A stretch of 45,086 nt of DNA, taken from NCBI RefSeq assembly GCF_018274385.1, contig NZ_JAAFYZ010000065.1, positions 1 to 45,086 of the forward strand, written 5' to 3'. This stretch comes from Catenulispora pinistramenti. GTDB lineage: Bacteria > Actinomycetota > Actinomycetes > Streptomycetales > Catenulisporaceae. The number at the start of each line of letters is the position of its first letter. Within the stretch, counting starts at the first letter, position 1. The notes under the pieces were generated by a model, which was given only the letters and a program-made list of their open reading frames with translations, ran no database searches and was not told the origin of the DNA. Both the position numbers and the translations under genes were made by a program. This document shows positions 18,047 through 30,087 of this stretch, piece after piece.

Positions 18047-18249
18047 GCCGCGATGGTGTACAAATCACATCATCCGGGCTAATCGGTGTTCGCCGGCCGC
18101 CTTCCCGTGGGAGATGACTCGCGAGATCGGGTGTCGAGGCAACCACACATGTCCCACCCGCGTCGAAGACGTAGAGCATACGGGCAAGCACGGGGCCGCT
18201 GACGGGGATCGGCGCGGTTCTGCGATCATGGCGAGGAGAGGTGCGGCTG

Positions 18250-19896
18250 TTGTCCGCGAAGAGCGAGGAGCTGGAAGACCTGCGCGACGGGGAACCGGCG
18301 CAGGGCCATACCGCCGCGGTTCACGGGAGCGGAGCGGGTGGTCCGTCCGCCGAGGCTGATGCGTTGGCCGAGACGGTCTCGCTGCCGGCGGCCGATCCGG
18401 CCCTGGCCGAGACGGTGTCGCTGAACGTGGCCGACGAGCGGGACCACATGCGGGTCCGACCATCGGCCGACCTCCACTCCGCCCCTGCCGCGGTGCCGCA
18501 GGACGTCGCGGAGGAGACGGCACGGGCCGTCGCCGAGGCGTCCGCGGACGGCGCCGAGGGAACCGCCGGAGCGGGATTCGAGCCCGGTGCGCAGGACGGC
18601 TCCGAGGGTGAGGCGGCCGAGGCCCCGTTCCCCTCGCGCCGCCGGCGGCACACTCCGTTGTACGGCCGCGGTGTCCGGGTCCTGCCGTGGAAGCACAAGG
18701 CGCGCCTGAACCCCGCGCAGCGCCGCCGCCGCAAGATCGTGGTGCGCTCGCTGTGGGGCTGCGTGCTGGTCTTCGTCGGCACCGTCGGCTGGTCCATCGG
18801 CGGCGCGCTGACCTCGCCGGGCACCGACACCGTGCAGGCCCGGCTGGCCGAGTGGGGCCGCGACCACGGCATGGGCGGCGCGGTGGCGCAGCTGGAGCAG
18901 TGGCAGTACGACCTGAACCCGCCGGCCAAGGGCGGTTCGGTGGACGCCAAGCAGTTCACCGACCTCGGGCCCACGGCCGGTGCGCCGAGCGGGGCCAAGC
19001 CGTCCAAGGGCGGCGCCGTCCCGGGCAAGCCGGGCGCGCCGAGCAGCCAGGCCGCGGACGTGATCGCGATGCAGCCGCGGATGCCGGCCCCGCCCGGACT
19101 GACGCTGGAGCCCGGCGAGGGCGTGTTCCAGGTCGCGGTGCAGACCCCCAACGGCCAGCCGGTGGTCCAGGTCGCGCGCATCCGCCCGGACGCGGTCTAC
19201 ACCGGCACCGCCGCCGACGTGGCCGTGATCGACCAGAAGCACAGCAGCTACGTGCTGCACCCGGGCCACGAGGGCGGCCTGAACTCGATCATCAAGGACG
19301 TCCCGAACCAGATCGACGCCAACGCCCGCCCGAACCTGATCGCGCTGTTCAACGGCGGCTTCAAGATCAGCGAGAGCCAGGGCGGCTACTACGACCACGG
19401 CGTCACCGCGGCCGCCCTGGTCAACGGCGCGGCCAGCGAGGTCATCTTCAAGGACGGCCACATGGCGGTCGGCATGTGGGGACGCGACTACAGCTTCCAG
19501 AAGAACAGCGACATCGTCAGCGTCCGCCAGAACCTCAAGCTCATGGTCGACAACGGCCAGGTCGTCCCCTACATCGACGACAGCTCCGTCTGGGGCCGCG
19601 CCGACCACGGCTCGGCCGCCGTCTGGCGCTCCGGCGTCGGCGTCAAGGCCGACGGCGACATCGTCTGGGTCGGCGGCAACACCCTGACCGCCCCCTCCCT
19701 GGCCCGCCTGCTGAAGGACGCTGGCGCGGTCCGCGCGATGCAGCTGGACATCAACCTGCGATGGGCGGACTTCCAGTACTTCCCGGCCCACGACGGGAAC
19801 CCGGACAACTCCAAGCTCTACGAGGACTTCCTCCAGGGGCCGAACAAGTTCTTTGAGAACTCGACGAAGGACTTCATGGCCGTCTACCTGCGCTGA
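18250..19896 (+). CDS. Membrane-anchored phosphodiester glycosidase family protein
   Basis: This 548-residue protein has an acidic, disordered cytoplasmic N-terminus (to about 135), a basic patch, one membrane helix (about 170-190, VVRSLWGCVLVFVGTVGW) and an extracytoplasmic domain. From about residue 285 this domain matches the phosphodiester glycosidase (NAGPA, DUF2233) family, with LFNGGFKIS, DHGVTAAALV and the late MQLDIN motif. The family's eukaryotic founder removes GlcNAc from mannose-6-phosphate diesters. In bacteria a role on wall-linked phosphodiester sugars is likely but unproven. The GAGGAGAGG Shine-Dalgarno (18233-18241) is too close to an in-frame GTG at 18241; the TTG at 18250 (or CTG at 18247) fits better. 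A strong terminator follows. Confidence 0.85.
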   Translation: MSAKSEELEDLRDGEPAQGHTAAVHGSGAGGPSAEADALAETVSLPAADPALAETVSLNVADERDHMRVRPSADLHSAPAAVPQDVAEETARAVAEASADGAEGTAGAGFEPGAQDGSEGEAAEAPFPSRRRRHTPLYGRGVRVLPWKHKARLNPAQRRRRKIVVRSLWGCVLVFVGTVGWSIGGALTSPGTDTVQARLAEWGRDHGMGGAVAQLEQWQYDLNPPAKGGSVDAKQFTDLGPTAGAPSGAKPSKGGAVPGKPGAPSSQAADVIAMQPRMPAPPGLTLEPGEGVFQVAVQTPNGQPVVQVARIRPDAVYTGTAADVAVIDQKHSSYVLHPGHEGGLNSIIKDVPNQIDANARPNLIALFNGGFKISESQGGYYDHGVTAAALVNGAASEVIFKDGHMAVGMWGRDYSFQKNSDIVSVRQNLKLMVDNGQVVPYIDDSSVWGRADHGSAAVWRSGVGVKADGDIVWVGGNTLTAPSLARLLKDAGAVRAMQLDINLRWADFQYFPAHDGNPDNSKLYEDFLQGPNKFFENSTKDFMAVYLR

Positions 19897-19917
19897 GGTT
19901 TCGCGGTATCGCGGTAG

Positions 19918-19957
19918 AGCAAGCAGCGCGGCGCACTGAAGCGCCGCGCTGCTTGCT
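19918..19957 (+). terminator. Terminator after the glycosidase gene
   Basis: A perfect 17-bp stem pairs 19918-19934 with 19941-19957 around an ACTGAA loop, 22 bases after the stop codon. It is the longest perfect hairpin in the window. It lies only four bases before the duplicated leader element R1. Confidence 0.85.
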
Positions 19958-19961
19958 GCAT

Positions 19962-20015
19962 CAAGGGCCAATGCCGTCCCGCCGTGTCAGTGGACACGAC
20001 GGAAGGACGAGCCCG
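19962..20015 (+). repeat. Leader element R1 (copy of the gltB leader)
   Basis: From CAAGGGCCAA to GGAAGGAC (19962-20008), this stretch matches R2 upstream of gltB at about 42 of 48 aligned positions by eye. It folds as CGTGTC (19983-19988) with GACACG (19993-19998), extended by CCG with CGG (20000-20002) and GTC with GAC. The Shine-Dalgarno GGAAGGA is therefore in the 3' arm. The ATG of the 52-aa gene follows seven bases later. Confidence 0.75.
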
Positions 20016-20174
20016 ATGAACCTCCTCAACCAGATCTTCACGCTGACCACCTCGGCCGCGGTCGCCATCAACGCGACCCTGACCGCGGTCGGCAAGGTCG
20101 GCAAGATCGCCGAAGCCCGGCGCCAAAAGAACTCATCCACTGTCGGTGAGTTGGATTCGCCCGCGGGGGAATAG
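20016..20174 (+). CDS. Small unknown protein sharing its leader with gltB
   Basis: This 52-residue ORF starts at ATG 20016 behind GGAAGGAC (20001-20008) at ideal spacing. Residues 1-35 form a hydrophobic or amphipathic helix ending in KIAEARRQK; the last 15 are polar and acidic. I recognise no family, and there is no clear signal peptide or cysteine. Its 5' leader is nearly identical to that of gltB, 430 bases downstream, so the two are probably controlled alike and a link to glutamate synthesis is possible. No promoter is obvious after the upstream terminator; a TAGAGC box at 19915-19920 overlaps it. The good start signal and codon use favour a real gene. Confidence 0.6.
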   Translation: MNLLNQIFTLTTSAAVAINATLTAVGKVGKIAEARRQKNSSTVGELDSPAGE

Positions 20175-20362
20175 GGGAGAAGAGGCGTAGCCGCCGTCCG
20201 GCGGGCCGTCGGCGCGCCATCGAAATCCCGTGCCGACCCGGCGTCGCACCCGGCCCAGCTCAAGATCCACATCAAATTAGCCGGTCTCACTATCCGGAAC
20301 ACATCTCAAGACCACCGGTCCCGAACTGTGAGATACTCCACTCCCCACCGGCACCACCATGT

Positions 20363-20379
20363 TGTAACCTCTGCTTACA
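20363..20379 (+). promoter_or_regulatory. Inverted repeat upstream of gltB (possible nitrogen-regulator site)
   Basis: TGTAA (20363-20367) and TTACA (20375-20379) flank seven bases. GTAAC at 20364-20368 matches the first half of a GlnR box (GTnAC-n6-GAAAC), but the second half fits poorly. It lies 70-90 bases before gltB in AT-richer DNA, where a nitrogen-control site would be expected. Confidence 0.35.
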
Positions 20380-20394
20380 CCTGATCGGATTGCG

Positions 20395-20450
20395 CAAGGG
20401 CCAAAGACGTCCCGCCGTGCCAGACTGACACGACGGAAGGACAGCCCCTC
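20395..20450 (+). repeat. Leader element R2 of gltB
   Basis: This is the gltB copy of the duplicated leader (core 20395-20442). It can fold with CGTG pairing CACG, CCG with CGG and GTC with GAC, placing GGAAGGAC (20435-20442) in the 3' arm, eight bases before the ATG. Differences from R1 fall mostly in the upper stem and loop, so the lower fold is kept in both. Confidence 0.75.
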
Positions 20451-25119
<4,669 letters not shown>

Positions 25120-25127
<8 letters not shown>

Positions 25128-26580
25128 CCCCCGTGGTTTCCTGACCACCCCGCAGCAGCACCCCGAGCGCCGCCCGGTCACCGAGCGCGTCCAGGACTGG
25201 AAAGAGGTCTACAAGCCCGGCGGGCTCCTGCCGATCATCAGCAAGCAAGCCGGCCGGTGTATGGACTGCGGCATCCCCTTCTGCCACAACGGCTGCCCGC
25301 TCGGGAACATCATCCCGGAGTGGAACGACCTGGTGTGGAAGGGCGACTGGGAGGGTGCCTCCGAGCGGCTGCACGCGACCAACAACTTCCCGGAGTTCAC
25401 CGGGCGGCTGTGTCCGGCGCCGTGTGAGACCGCCTGTGTGCTGGGCATCAACCAGCCGCCGGTGACCATCAAGAACGTCGAGGTCGCGATCATCGACCGG
25501 GCCTGGGAGGACGGGACCGTCAAGCCCCTGCCGCCCGAGCGGCTCTCCGGGCGCACCGTGGCCGTGATCGGCTCCGGTCCCTCGGGCCTGGCCGCCGCGC
25601 AGCAGCTCACGCGGGCCGGGCACACGGTCGCCGTCTACGAGCGGGCCGACCGGATCGGCGGCCTGCTGCGCTACGGCATCCCCGAGTTCAAGATGGAGAA
25701 GCGGCACCTGAACCGGCGGATCGAGCAGATGCGCGCCGAGGGCACGAAGTTCCGTCCCGGTATGCACATCGGCGTCGACCTGACCGGCGACGCGCTGCTG
25801 GCCCGCTATGACGCCATCGTGCTCGCGGTCGGCTCGACCAAGGCCCGCGATCTGGAGGTGCCGGGGCGCGATCTGGCCGGGGTGCACCAGGCGATGGACT
25901 ACCTGCCCTACGCGAACAAGACCTGCGAGGGTGACTACCTGACCGCGCCGATCGACGCGTTCGGCAAGCACGTGGTGGTCATCGGCGGCGGCGACACCGG
26001 CGCGGACTGCCTGGGCACGGCCACCCGGCAGGGCGCCGCCTCGGTCACCCAGCTGGAGATCATGCCGCGGCCTACGGATGAGCGGCCCGGGCACCAGCCG
26101 TGGCCGACCTACCCGATGATCTTCCGGGTCTCCTCGGCGCACGAGGAGAACGGCGAGCGCGTCTACGCGGTGTCCACCACCGAGTTCGTCGGCGACGACA
26201 ACGGCCGGGTCCAGGCCCTGAAGCTGACCGAGGTGCGGTTCGAGGGCGGCCGTCCGGTCCCGGTCGAGGGCACCGAGCGCGAGATCCCGGCCGATCTGGT
26301 CCTGCTGGCCATGGGCTTCGTCGGCCCCGAGCGCGGCAACGGCCTGATCGACCAGCTGGGCCTGGCCCTGGACGAGCGCGGCAACATCGCGCGGGACGCC
26401 GAGTACGCGACCAACGTGCCCGGTGTCTTCGTGGCCGGGGACGCCGGACGCGGGCAATCGCTGATCGTCTGGGCGATCGCCGAGGGCCGCTCGGCGGCCA
26501 GTTCGGTGGACGCCTACCTGAGCGGTGCCAGCACGCTGCCCAAGCCGATCCCGCCGACCGCGCGGCAGGTCACGGTCTGA
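25120..26580 (+). CDS. gltD: Glutamate synthase (NADPH) small subunit
   Basis: GltD oxidises NADPH and passes electrons through FAD and two [4Fe-4S] clusters to GltB. The 486-residue protein has N-terminal cluster cysteines Cys47, 50, 55, 59 ([13 protein letters not shown]) and Cys98, 102, 106 (CPAPCETAC), an FAD-binding GSGPSG near 150, an NADPH-binding GGGDTG near 290, and the late [18 protein letters not shown] motif. The GTG at 25120 overlaps gltB and follows GGAGG (25109-25113), so the subunits are co-translated. Two near-identical hairpins follow. Confidence 0.97.
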
Positions 26581-29220: not shown

Positions 29221-29294
29221 TGCTCCGGGTGGGACTCGAACCCACACTGAATGGTGTTTGAGACCATCTTCTCTGCCGATTGGAATACCGGAGC
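29221..29294 (-). tRNA. tRNA-Leu (anticodon CAA) with short variable loop
   Basis: The 74-base cloverleaf has a 7-bp acceptor stem (GCTCCGG/CCGGAGC, discriminator A), a 3-bp D stem with GG in the loop, an anticodon stem ATGGT/ACCAT around CTCAAAC (anticodon CAA, leucine codon UUG), and a T arm GTGGG-TTCGAGT-CCCAC. CCA is not encoded. The variable loop is only five bases (TCAGT), whereas tRNA-Leu normally has a long extra arm. The leucine label therefore rests on the anticodon and A73 alone. A good terminator follows, so it is transcribed as its own unit. Confidence 0.85.
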
Positions 29295-29451: not shown

Positions 29452-30087
29452 ATGACCACCGAGCCGACCCGCACCCGCCGAGTGATCATCGCCGAGGACG
29501 AGGCGCTGATCCGCCTGGACCTGAAGGAGATGCTCCAGGAGGAGGGGTACGAGGTCGTGGCCGAGGCTTCCGACGGCGCCGCCGCGGTCCGCCTGGCCGA
29601 GGAGCACCGCCCGGACCTGTGCATCTTCGACGTGAAGATGCCGGTGCTGGACGGGATCACCGCCGCCGAGCAGGTGATCGAGGCGCGGATCGCGCCGGTG
29701 CTGATCCTCACCGCCTTCTCCCAGCGCGACCTGGTGGAGCGGGCGGCCGAGGCCGGGGTGATGAACTACCTGGTCAAGCCGTTCACCAAGGACAAGCTGG
29801 TACCGGCCATCGAGATCGCCGTCTGTCGGCACACCCAGCTGACCGCGCTGGAGGGCGAGGTCGCCGACCTGGCCTCGCGGCTGGAGACCCGCAAGCTGGT
29901 GGACCGGGCCAAGGGCATCTTGCAGACGGTGCACGGGATGACCGAGCCGGAGGCGTTCCGCTGGATCCAGAAGACCTCGATGGACCGGCGGATGACCATG
30001 AAGGAAGTCGCCGAGGTGGTCATCAGCGGGTCGACGGCGGTCGGCTCCCCGGCACCCGGCGGTGCGACCCCGGCCAAGGCGGAGTGA
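29452..30087 (+). CDS. pdtaR: ANTAR-type response regulator (PdtaR-like)
   Basis: This 211-residue protein has an N-terminal receiver domain with acidic pocket (IIAEDEALIR), phosphorylated Asp60 (FDVKMP), conserved Thr (ILTAFS) and Lys (YLVKPF). A C-terminal ANTAR RNA-binding domain follows (about 140-195; LVDRAKGILQTVHGMTEPEAFRWIQ is its hallmark). Such regulators, like mycobacterial Rv1626, are phosphorylated by a cytosolic histidine kinase and bind paired RNA hairpins to prevent termination. The ATG at 29452 follows GAGGA (29443-29447). In-frame sequence upstream overlaps the tRNA and is not coding. No kinase gene is nearby. Its RNA targets are not evident here. Confidence 0.93.
   Translation: MTTEPTRTRRVIIAEDEALIRLDLKEMLQEEGYEVVAEASDGAAAVRLAEEHRPDLCIFDVKMPVLDGITAAEQVIEARIAPVLILTAFSQRDLVERAAEAGVMNYLVKPFTKDKLVPAIEIAVCRHTQLTALEGEVADLASRLETRKLVDRAKGILQTVHGMTEPEAFRWIQKTSMDRRMTMKEVAEVVISGSTAVGSPAPGGATPAKAE

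Follow-up and report, generated by a model that had tools for sequence, protein, structure and literature searches.

A conserved hairpin upstream of gltB in actinomycetes as a candidate single-hexaloop ANTAR target

Glutamate synthase (GOGAT) provides a main route by which glutamine is turned into glutamate, and control of its gltB gene is the question raised by the locus described here. In the window, the stretch of 45,086 nt from an actinomycete genome of 11.46 Mb that we analyzed, the leader of gltB occurs twice, once before gltB itself and once before an ORF encoding 52 amino acids (Table 1). The sequence-only reading took the two copies for a shared element that can hide the Shine-Dalgarno sequence in a lower stem and that coordinates gltB with a small protein. 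The duplication is real, in that a recount gave 42 identical positions out of 48 aligned, GGAAGGAC lies 7 nt (19962 copy) or 8 nt (gltB copy) before the ATG, and the GTC/GAC and CCG/CGG pairs that had been proposed can form. We found that the 19962 copy folds better than shuffled sequences (z -2.94), whereas the gltB copy does not (z +0.55); thus, the lower fold at gltB draws no support from folding energy alone. When the whole genome was searched with the element at the DNA level, only two places were found at E <= 0.001, beyond what chance would give: the query itself (3.5e-26) and the other copy (6.7e-10), with no third copy at that threshold. A later covariance model recovered the two copies in this genome at E 8.9e-6 and 0.0016, and the next match had an E value of 0.067.

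Table 1. Features of the gltB locus, in coordinates of the window
Feature	Position	Strand	Basis or remark
180 bp with second copy and first ~40 codons of 52-aa ORF	19957..20136	+	blastn of 19401-20460 against L008
Leader copy 1	19962-20008		before 52-aa ORF
Second HP1 copy, GGGCC [AATGCC] GTCCC	19965..19980	+	before 52-aa ORF; not found in nine congeners
52-aa ORF	20016..20174	+	Pfam, relatives search, congener comparison
Predicted gltB -10 box, TAACCT	20365..20370	+	kept in congeners; few changes in Streptomyces
Leader copy 2	20395-20442		before gltB
HP1 of gltB, GGGCC [AAAGAC] GTCCC	20398..20413	+	conserved upstream of gltB; outer-pair covariation
HP1 stem	20398-20402 / 20409-20413
HP1 hexaloop	20403-20408		loop A1 = 20403, G4 = 20406
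P2, alternative RBS-occluding helix	20409..20442	+	pairing from sequence, predicted probability; excludes HP1
P2 strands, GUC/GAC	20409-20411 / 20440-20442
P2 strands, CCG/CGG	20412-20414 / 20434-20436
P2 strands, CGUG/CACG	20416-20419 / 20429-20432
gltB Shine-Dalgarno region, GGAAGGAC	20435..20442	+	sequence
gltB, glutamate synthase large subunit	20451..25127	+	Pfam GATase_2, Glu_syn_central, Glu_synthase, GXGXG
gltD, glutamate synthase small subunit	25120..26580	+	Pfam Fer4_20, Pyr_redox_2; 8-nt overlap with gltB
PdtaR-like ANTAR response regulator	29452..30087	+	Pfam Response_reg and ANTAR; PDB match

We considered the possibility that the duplicated leader coordinates gltB with the 52-aa protein, as the presence in this genome of two copies with good Shine-Dalgarno spacing might suggest. 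Comparison with relatives made this very improbable, and we rejected it. The second copy and the ORF were found in this genome only: in the nearest relative (L008), both flanks match at 94%, and 47 other bases stand in place of the 180 bp that hold the second copy and the beginning of the ORF, while in each of nine congeners searched a single strong copy (E below 1e-9) was found, immediately ahead of gltB. No Pfam family matches the ORF, a search of 60 genomes gave no credible relative (best E 0.026), and the 60 nt before the second copy contain no block resembling the gltB promoter. Moreover, the in-frame end of the ORF (20140-20174) is a remnant of the 3' end of a regulator gene, and L004, L007 and L010 have at this site upstream of gltB the whole gene, which we take from its sequence to be of the PadR type. 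The ORF is probably not a conserved gene; it would consist of an insert fused in frame with what is left, at the 3' end, of a lost PadR-type gene. We also note a perfect 17-bp inverted repeat with a 6-nt loop and without a T run (19918-19957), largely shared with L008, which lies just after a phosphodiester-glycosidase-type ORF (18241-19896).

Conservation in relatives, on which the sequence-only reading had staked its element, thus held for the copy upstream of gltB; the second copy and the 52-aa ORF were not found there. In Streptomyces and neighboring genera, the leader has the form AGGGCCA-RNG-UCGUCCC, then a variable hairpin, then GACGACGGGAG and the start codon. A first covariance model matched 84 of 296 genomes of the class at E <= 0.1 (with strict filters, under which the window's own genome was missed). 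Of the 57 matches outside genus g4, we fetched the 38 best, together with two second hits in g4 genomes; 35 of these best 38 immediately precede gltB and share its strand. Among the fetched matches, L113, L118 and both g4 second hits (L119, L129) lie away from gltB, and L092 is at a contig edge. With a stricter pattern applied to named genomes, 78 of the 80 matches listed (of 119 stretches) immediately precede gltB, and in two the sequence stops too early to tell what follows; the genera among the matches listed are Nonomuraea, Actinomadura, Microbispora, Streptosporangium, Kribbella, Jiangella, Phytoactinopolyspora, Embleya and Streptomyces.

A survey that began from the GltB protein found it in 107 of 118 genomes of the class. 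We read upstream regions in 95 of these genomes, 97 in all since two genomes give two (the window's own genome, seven g4 genomes, G138, G170, G172 and G224 were left out), and scored each for a strict hairpin, that is, a GGGCC-N6-GUCCC core with eight fixed bases (loop G4 included) and a standard outer pair, using the best window per region and preferring a standard outer pair. The strict hairpin was present in 82 of the 97 regions, representing 55 of 62 genera and 28 of 32 families. Three further regions (G217, G199, G139) have the eight bases without the outer pair. The remaining twelve comprise six from family f6 (two of them second gltB copies), three from f13, in which GltB identity is 41-43%, one from f12, G158, which is cut by a contig end, and G187, whose region is too short and stops before the start codon. 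In the two f6 genomes from which two gltB copies were read (L331, L335), one copy has the hairpin and the other lacks it.

Outside the class, 56 genomes were searched (six of them chosen on a match to a second model, R2); 41 have gltB, and 30 loci were read. The strict hairpin occurred in 12 of the 30, with GltB identity of 52-67%, and was absent from seven loci at 52-57% identity and from eight at 46% or less; of the last three, G530 has one mismatch, while in G490 and G495 the hairpin is CGGGC[6 nt]GCCCG. A perfect hairpin of this form, with loops GUCGUC and AACGGU, stands upstream of gltB in L345 and L358 (other classes), a possible further variant of the element. At the level of the phylum, R2 matched 14 of 296 genomes, eight of them in the window's order; of the six matched genomes outside the class, one (G597) has its match at gltB. 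A cis-acting element in the gltB leader is thus conserved over most families of the class that we examined and in some other classes.

The hairpin sequence by itself is less specific. In 292 genomes of the class, the bare 16-mer GGGCCARYGTYGTCCC was found at 115 places, spread over 111 genomes, compared to 17 for a reversed control pattern. We fetched 30 of the places; 22 of these proved to be at gltB and 8 elsewhere, a background about the size that the control predicts. The eight matches with no gltB following (L380, L381, L382, L383, L389, L390, L397, L402) are probably due to chance, although some could be other targets.

The proposal that the element is an undescribed one agrees with the Rfam searches, which gave no gathering-level match at the leader. 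With E up to 10, there was no match over the gltB copy, and a sub-threshold match to Rubella_3 (20 bits, gathering 35) overlaps the second copy; with E up to 5, no match was found over the element in 15 related loci.

The best-conserved part of the leader is a short hairpin, GGGCC-hexaloop-GUCCC, which we call HP1. It lies upstream of the lower stem that contains the Shine-Dalgarno sequence and excludes that stem. HP1 has a stem of five positions with a C.U mismatch (pairs 1-16, 2-15, 3-14 and 5-12), and thus at least 3 bp closed by a hexanucleotide loop. We looked for covariation in genus-level sets with one row per genus and core sequence. The inner pairs are invariant, but the outer pair varies and is standard in 66 of 69 rows, compared to 56.2 +/- 1.35 in shuffles (0/5000): it is GC in 58, CG in 4, GU in 2, and UA and AU in 1 each, with the 3 CC rows unpaired. 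The next pair out is also in excess (36/69 compared to 25.6 shuffled; 16/5000), while neither pairs further out nor three slid controls showed an excess of pairing in these 69 rows. A tool count on A5 gave a covariation of 0.141 compared to 0.054 shuffled (0/500), with 89.1% of cells paired compared to 83.9%. In the same count, pairs changed on both sides were no more frequent than in shuffles (213/500), and a +2 slide gave a covariation of 0.132, near that of HP1, with 49.7% of cells paired. In family f20 (L323, L326, L330, L333, L340), the hairpin is CGGAC[ARCGUY]GUCCG, in which the C.U mismatch is replaced by A-U, like A27-U36 of eutP. A closing helix P1, formed by GGGC and a GCCC before the start codon, fitted Streptomyces and Catenulispora, but was dropped because several other leaders (L098 and L112, for example) lack its 3' strand.

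The position of HP1 relative to the promoter bears on whether it acts as RNA or as DNA. A TANNNT box is found 8-60 nt upstream of HP1 in 66 of 82 regions of the class (23.6 +/- 4.0 in shuffles), mostly at 15-25 nt, and this spacing suggests that HP1 should lie near the 5' end of the transcript; in the window, the transcript would start near 20376-20378. We considered that HP1 might instead work as double-stranded DNA, as an operator for a repressor or an activator in the form of an imperfect dyad, GGGCC-N6-GTCCC, shortly after the transcription start. The half-sites are about one helical turn apart, the usual 15-25 nt between the -10 box and HP1 would suit such a site, and the symmetric changes of the outer pair fit a palindromic site as well as they fit a stem. 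We nevertheless think an operator improbable, since the distance from the -10 box varies from 23 to 53 nt in the 15 Streptomyces-type leaders that we read (it is 33 in the window), and since the C4/T13 asymmetry and the loop purine-1 and G-4 stay on the coding strand of gltB in the leaders found, although the sites are probably inherited vertically, which could also keep them there. Two further points against an operator come from RNA pairing and are given below. Separately, a block upstream of the -10 box (20284-20345), GTCTCA..GGAACACATCTC..GTCCCGCACTGTGAGATAGTCCACT, is strongly conserved in congeners, and Streptomyces-type leaders have a related GTCCGnAT..TGGAAC/GTGAGA block in a similar place; this block is possibly an operator for a transcription factor. 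In S. coelicolor, gltBp1 is a member of the HrdB regulon (PMC6344877), and GlnR is reported as a regulator of gltBD (PMC10704036), and thus other control of gltB exists.

If HP1 acts in the message, its effect on gltB might be exerted through the ribosome binding site. We found that the 3' strand of HP1, with part of the loop, is complementary to a strand that lies no more than 45 nt from the start codon, such that an alternative helix, P2, could form in place of HP1 through the GUC(C) strand that both share. With start codons assigned by a rule of thumb, 54 of 93 leaders have GACGAC in that 45-nt interval, compared to 1.7 in shuffles (maximum 9). A full 6-bp P2 match, G-U allowed, is present in 63 of the 93 and missing in 30, those of the Catenulispora type included. 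Matched variant arms occur in five leaders, as GUUGUC/GACAAC (3, all in f27), GCUGUC/GACAGC (1) and GCAGUC/GACUGC (1). Over all 93 leaders, each leader's own P2 pairing beats permuted pairings (0/1000, with kinship not removed), but it does no better than permuted pairings in the 32 leaders with variant arms (157/1000), and pair 8 of P2 adds nothing (998/5000). Thus, P2 as a fully covarying helix is only partly supported, with the variant-arm subset and the 30 leaders that lack the match against it.

Folding predictions, made with the same start codons for 73 of the 93 leaders, without the named loci and the long leaders, favor P2 over HP1. The predicted probability of P2 is above 0.5 in 62 of the 73 leaders, compared to 45% of shuffled tails, and that of HP1 is above 0.5 in only 2, compared to 15% shuffled; in the window, the gltB leader has predicted probabilities of 0.78 for P2 and 0.04 for HP1. 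Thus, the more conserved hairpin is the one that the free RNA is predicted to avoid, which is expected if something must bind to stabilize HP1. Both the HP1-complementary GACGAC near the start codon and the lean of free folding to P2 argue against the DNA operator. Of the original idea of a hidden ribosome binding site, it holds that the strand beside the site can be paired away, but the lower stem containing the Shine-Dalgarno sequence is not the part that is best conserved.

The loop of HP1 has a signature of its own. In a search that left the loop free, G occupies position 4 in 82 of 85 stem matches. Position 1 is a purine in 84 of them (69 A and 15 G) and C in the remaining one, so that A is usual there but not universal. 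The three matches without G4 are second matches in G124 and G211, each of which also has a match with G4, and the match in G187, which stops short of the gltB start. This signature led us to compare HP1 with ANTAR-target RNAs, in which each hairpin has a hexanucleotide loop with A1 and G4 (PMC8164766, PMC3369931). In hairpin P1 of eutP, the identity of the bases matters both in C28-G35, the pair that closes the loop, and in the A27-U36 pair beneath it (PMC3369931). HP1 has C5-G12 and then U13 where eutP has C28-G35 and then U36, although these bases were required by our search; below the closing C-G, an A-U as in eutP is found only in family f20, with C.U elsewhere. G4 is reported to be the only base-specific ANTAR contact and a single hexaloop to be the minimal motif, and single-hexaloop targets may exist (PMC8934654), while both hexaloops are needed in vivo for antitermination by EutV (PMC3369931, PMC8934654). 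We examined whether the gltB leaders fit the classical dual-hairpin motif, with a linker of 2-25 nt, and rejected it: a second A1/G4 hexaloop hairpin within 45 nt downstream was found in 4 of 66 leaders, compared to 5.7 in shuffles. Since the second hexaloop is missing, the leader falls outside the dual-hairpin definition, and its resemblance is to an ANTAR target of the single-hexaloop kind.

We also examined whether ANTAR proteins occur where the hairpin does. Among 101 genomes with the strict hairpin, a hand tally gave an ANTAR domain for 99 (the exceptions, with no ANTAR gene detected, are G144 and G209, which is 60% complete), compared to 14 of 23 genomes without the hairpin (Fisher 2.5e-6); six genomes with near or variant hairpins were dropped from this table (G139, G217, G199, G490, G495, G530). 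ANTAR genes are common, often with several per genome. The nine genomes that lack both hairpin and ANTAR domain belong to f58 (six genomes), f66, f80 and f82, and since six of the nine are in one family, these represent few independent losses and the association is confounded by kinship. Proximity gave a further indication. An ANTAR gene lies within 35 kb of gltB in at least 53 of 119 genomes that have one (read by hand), while outside the class no ANTAR gene is that close to gltB among the matches listed. Each of seven f27 genomes tested, which are small (1.3-2.2 Mb), has the hairpin and one ANTAR gene, 7-8 kb from gltB. In the window, the ANTAR gene is about 9 kb downstream, after gltB, gltD and pyk, and a tRNA gene on the minus strand (29221-29294, Rfam match) lies between pyk and the regulator gene. 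The best PDB match of the regulator is 1s8n/1sd5, a 'putative antiterminator' (E 3.4e-79), followed by 6wsh/6ww6 (1e-40). We take 1s8n to be Rv1626/PdtaR.

These observations can be assembled into a switch. The gltB message would start with HP1, that is, GGGCC, a hexaloop that begins with a purine, mostly A, and has G as its fourth base, and GUCCC. In the free RNA, the 3' strand of HP1 and its loop would pair with the strand beside the Shine-Dalgarno sequence or start codon to form P2, which would hinder translation. HP1 would be recognized by a response regulator with an ANTAR domain, most likely the PdtaR-like one whose gene lies 9 kb downstream. When made active by its signal, the regulator would hold HP1, such that P2 is blocked and gltB is translated. 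The computations give the conservation and covariation of HP1, its tie to gltB, its loop signature, its co-occurrence with ANTAR proteins and the predicted default to P2; we infer from them that an ANTAR protein binds, that it would activate rather than repress, what its signal would be, and that it would act at the level of translation. The balance of the evidence tips somewhat toward this reading, in which the gltB leader is a single-hexaloop ANTAR target, likely of a PdtaR-like regulator, that switches gltB translation. The wider claim, that gltB in much of Actinomycetota is under translational control by a PdtaR-type ANTAR regulator through such a single-hexaloop target, is one we find as easy to doubt as to believe.

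The same HP1/P2 switch might instead be read by another ligand, either a metabolite (glutamine, glutamate or 2-oxoglutarate) or another RNA-binding protein. Feedback by a metabolite of the pathway would suit the tie to glutamate synthase, glutamine riboswitches and a gltD candidate motif exist elsewhere (PMC2864571, PMC8632094), and the second ANTAR hexaloop is missing. However, the conserved part is only about 16 nt, which is small for an aptamer, its best-conserved loop positions are those of ANTAR hexaloops, and four families without a detected ANTAR domain are also without the hairpin. We consider another ligand unlikely, though more probable than the DNA operator.

If the ANTAR reading is true, a conserved RNA switch acts on the GOGAT message in most actinobacterial families examined, antibiotic producers included, and a large gap in actinobacterial nitrogen control would be filled. 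The widespread PdtaR/ANTAR regulators would gain a concrete conserved target, for which loop G4 offers a one-base test, and PdtaS/PdtaR-type signaling would be tied to the glutamate pool. It would also follow that ANTAR proteins can act with one hexaloop at a ribosome binding site, rather than two at a terminator, and the gltB leader would be a widespread natural case of the single-hexaloop site predicted in 2022.

In the literature searched, which took in the main text of PMC8164766 and few subscription papers, we found no description of the gltB leader element, although an earlier listing may exist; neither gltB nor glutamate appears as a term in the main texts of PMC8164766, PMC11537054 and PMC8131098. 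Among known elements, the glnA and Downstream-peptide glutamine riboswitches are likewise associated with nitrogen assimilation genes, glutamate synthase included (PMC2864571), but their Rfam models do not match the gltB leader (E up to 10 for the window, E up to 5 for the 15 related loci). The gltD (SRC-18-1) motif of Brewer et al. (2021), compared here by description, resembles the gltB leader in lying upstream of a glutamate synthase gene and in having a possible RBS-occluding hairpin; it is found at gltD of Selenomonadales/Veillonellales, and the section that describes it gives no ANTAR link (PMC8632094).

The closest likeness is to the ANTAR-target RNAs of the EutV/eut, NasR/nasF and AmiR/amiE leaders, which share with HP1 a short stem, an A1/G4 hexaloop and an ANTAR response regulator in the same genome. 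In the gltB leader, P2 would be the counterpart of the repressing helix that competes for a strand of these hairpins, and the C-G closing pair followed by U, as in eutP, consists of bases that our search required. About 37% of published actinobacterial ANTAR targets overlap a ribosome binding site or start codon (Mehta and Ramesh 2021, PMC8164766). Unlike the ANTAR-target RNAs, the gltB leader has one hexaloop, not two, and a competing helix at the ribosome binding site, not at a terminator, and it is tied to a single gene, gltB, over many families. Desulfotomaculum reducens belongs to a phylum other than Actinomycetota. In this species, ANTAR dual hairpins are reported at glutamate synthase genes (Ramesh et al. 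2012, PMC3369931). Compared by description, these substrates differ from the gltB leader in having the dual hairpin, and the case is an independent precedent for a link between ANTAR regulation and glutamate synthase.
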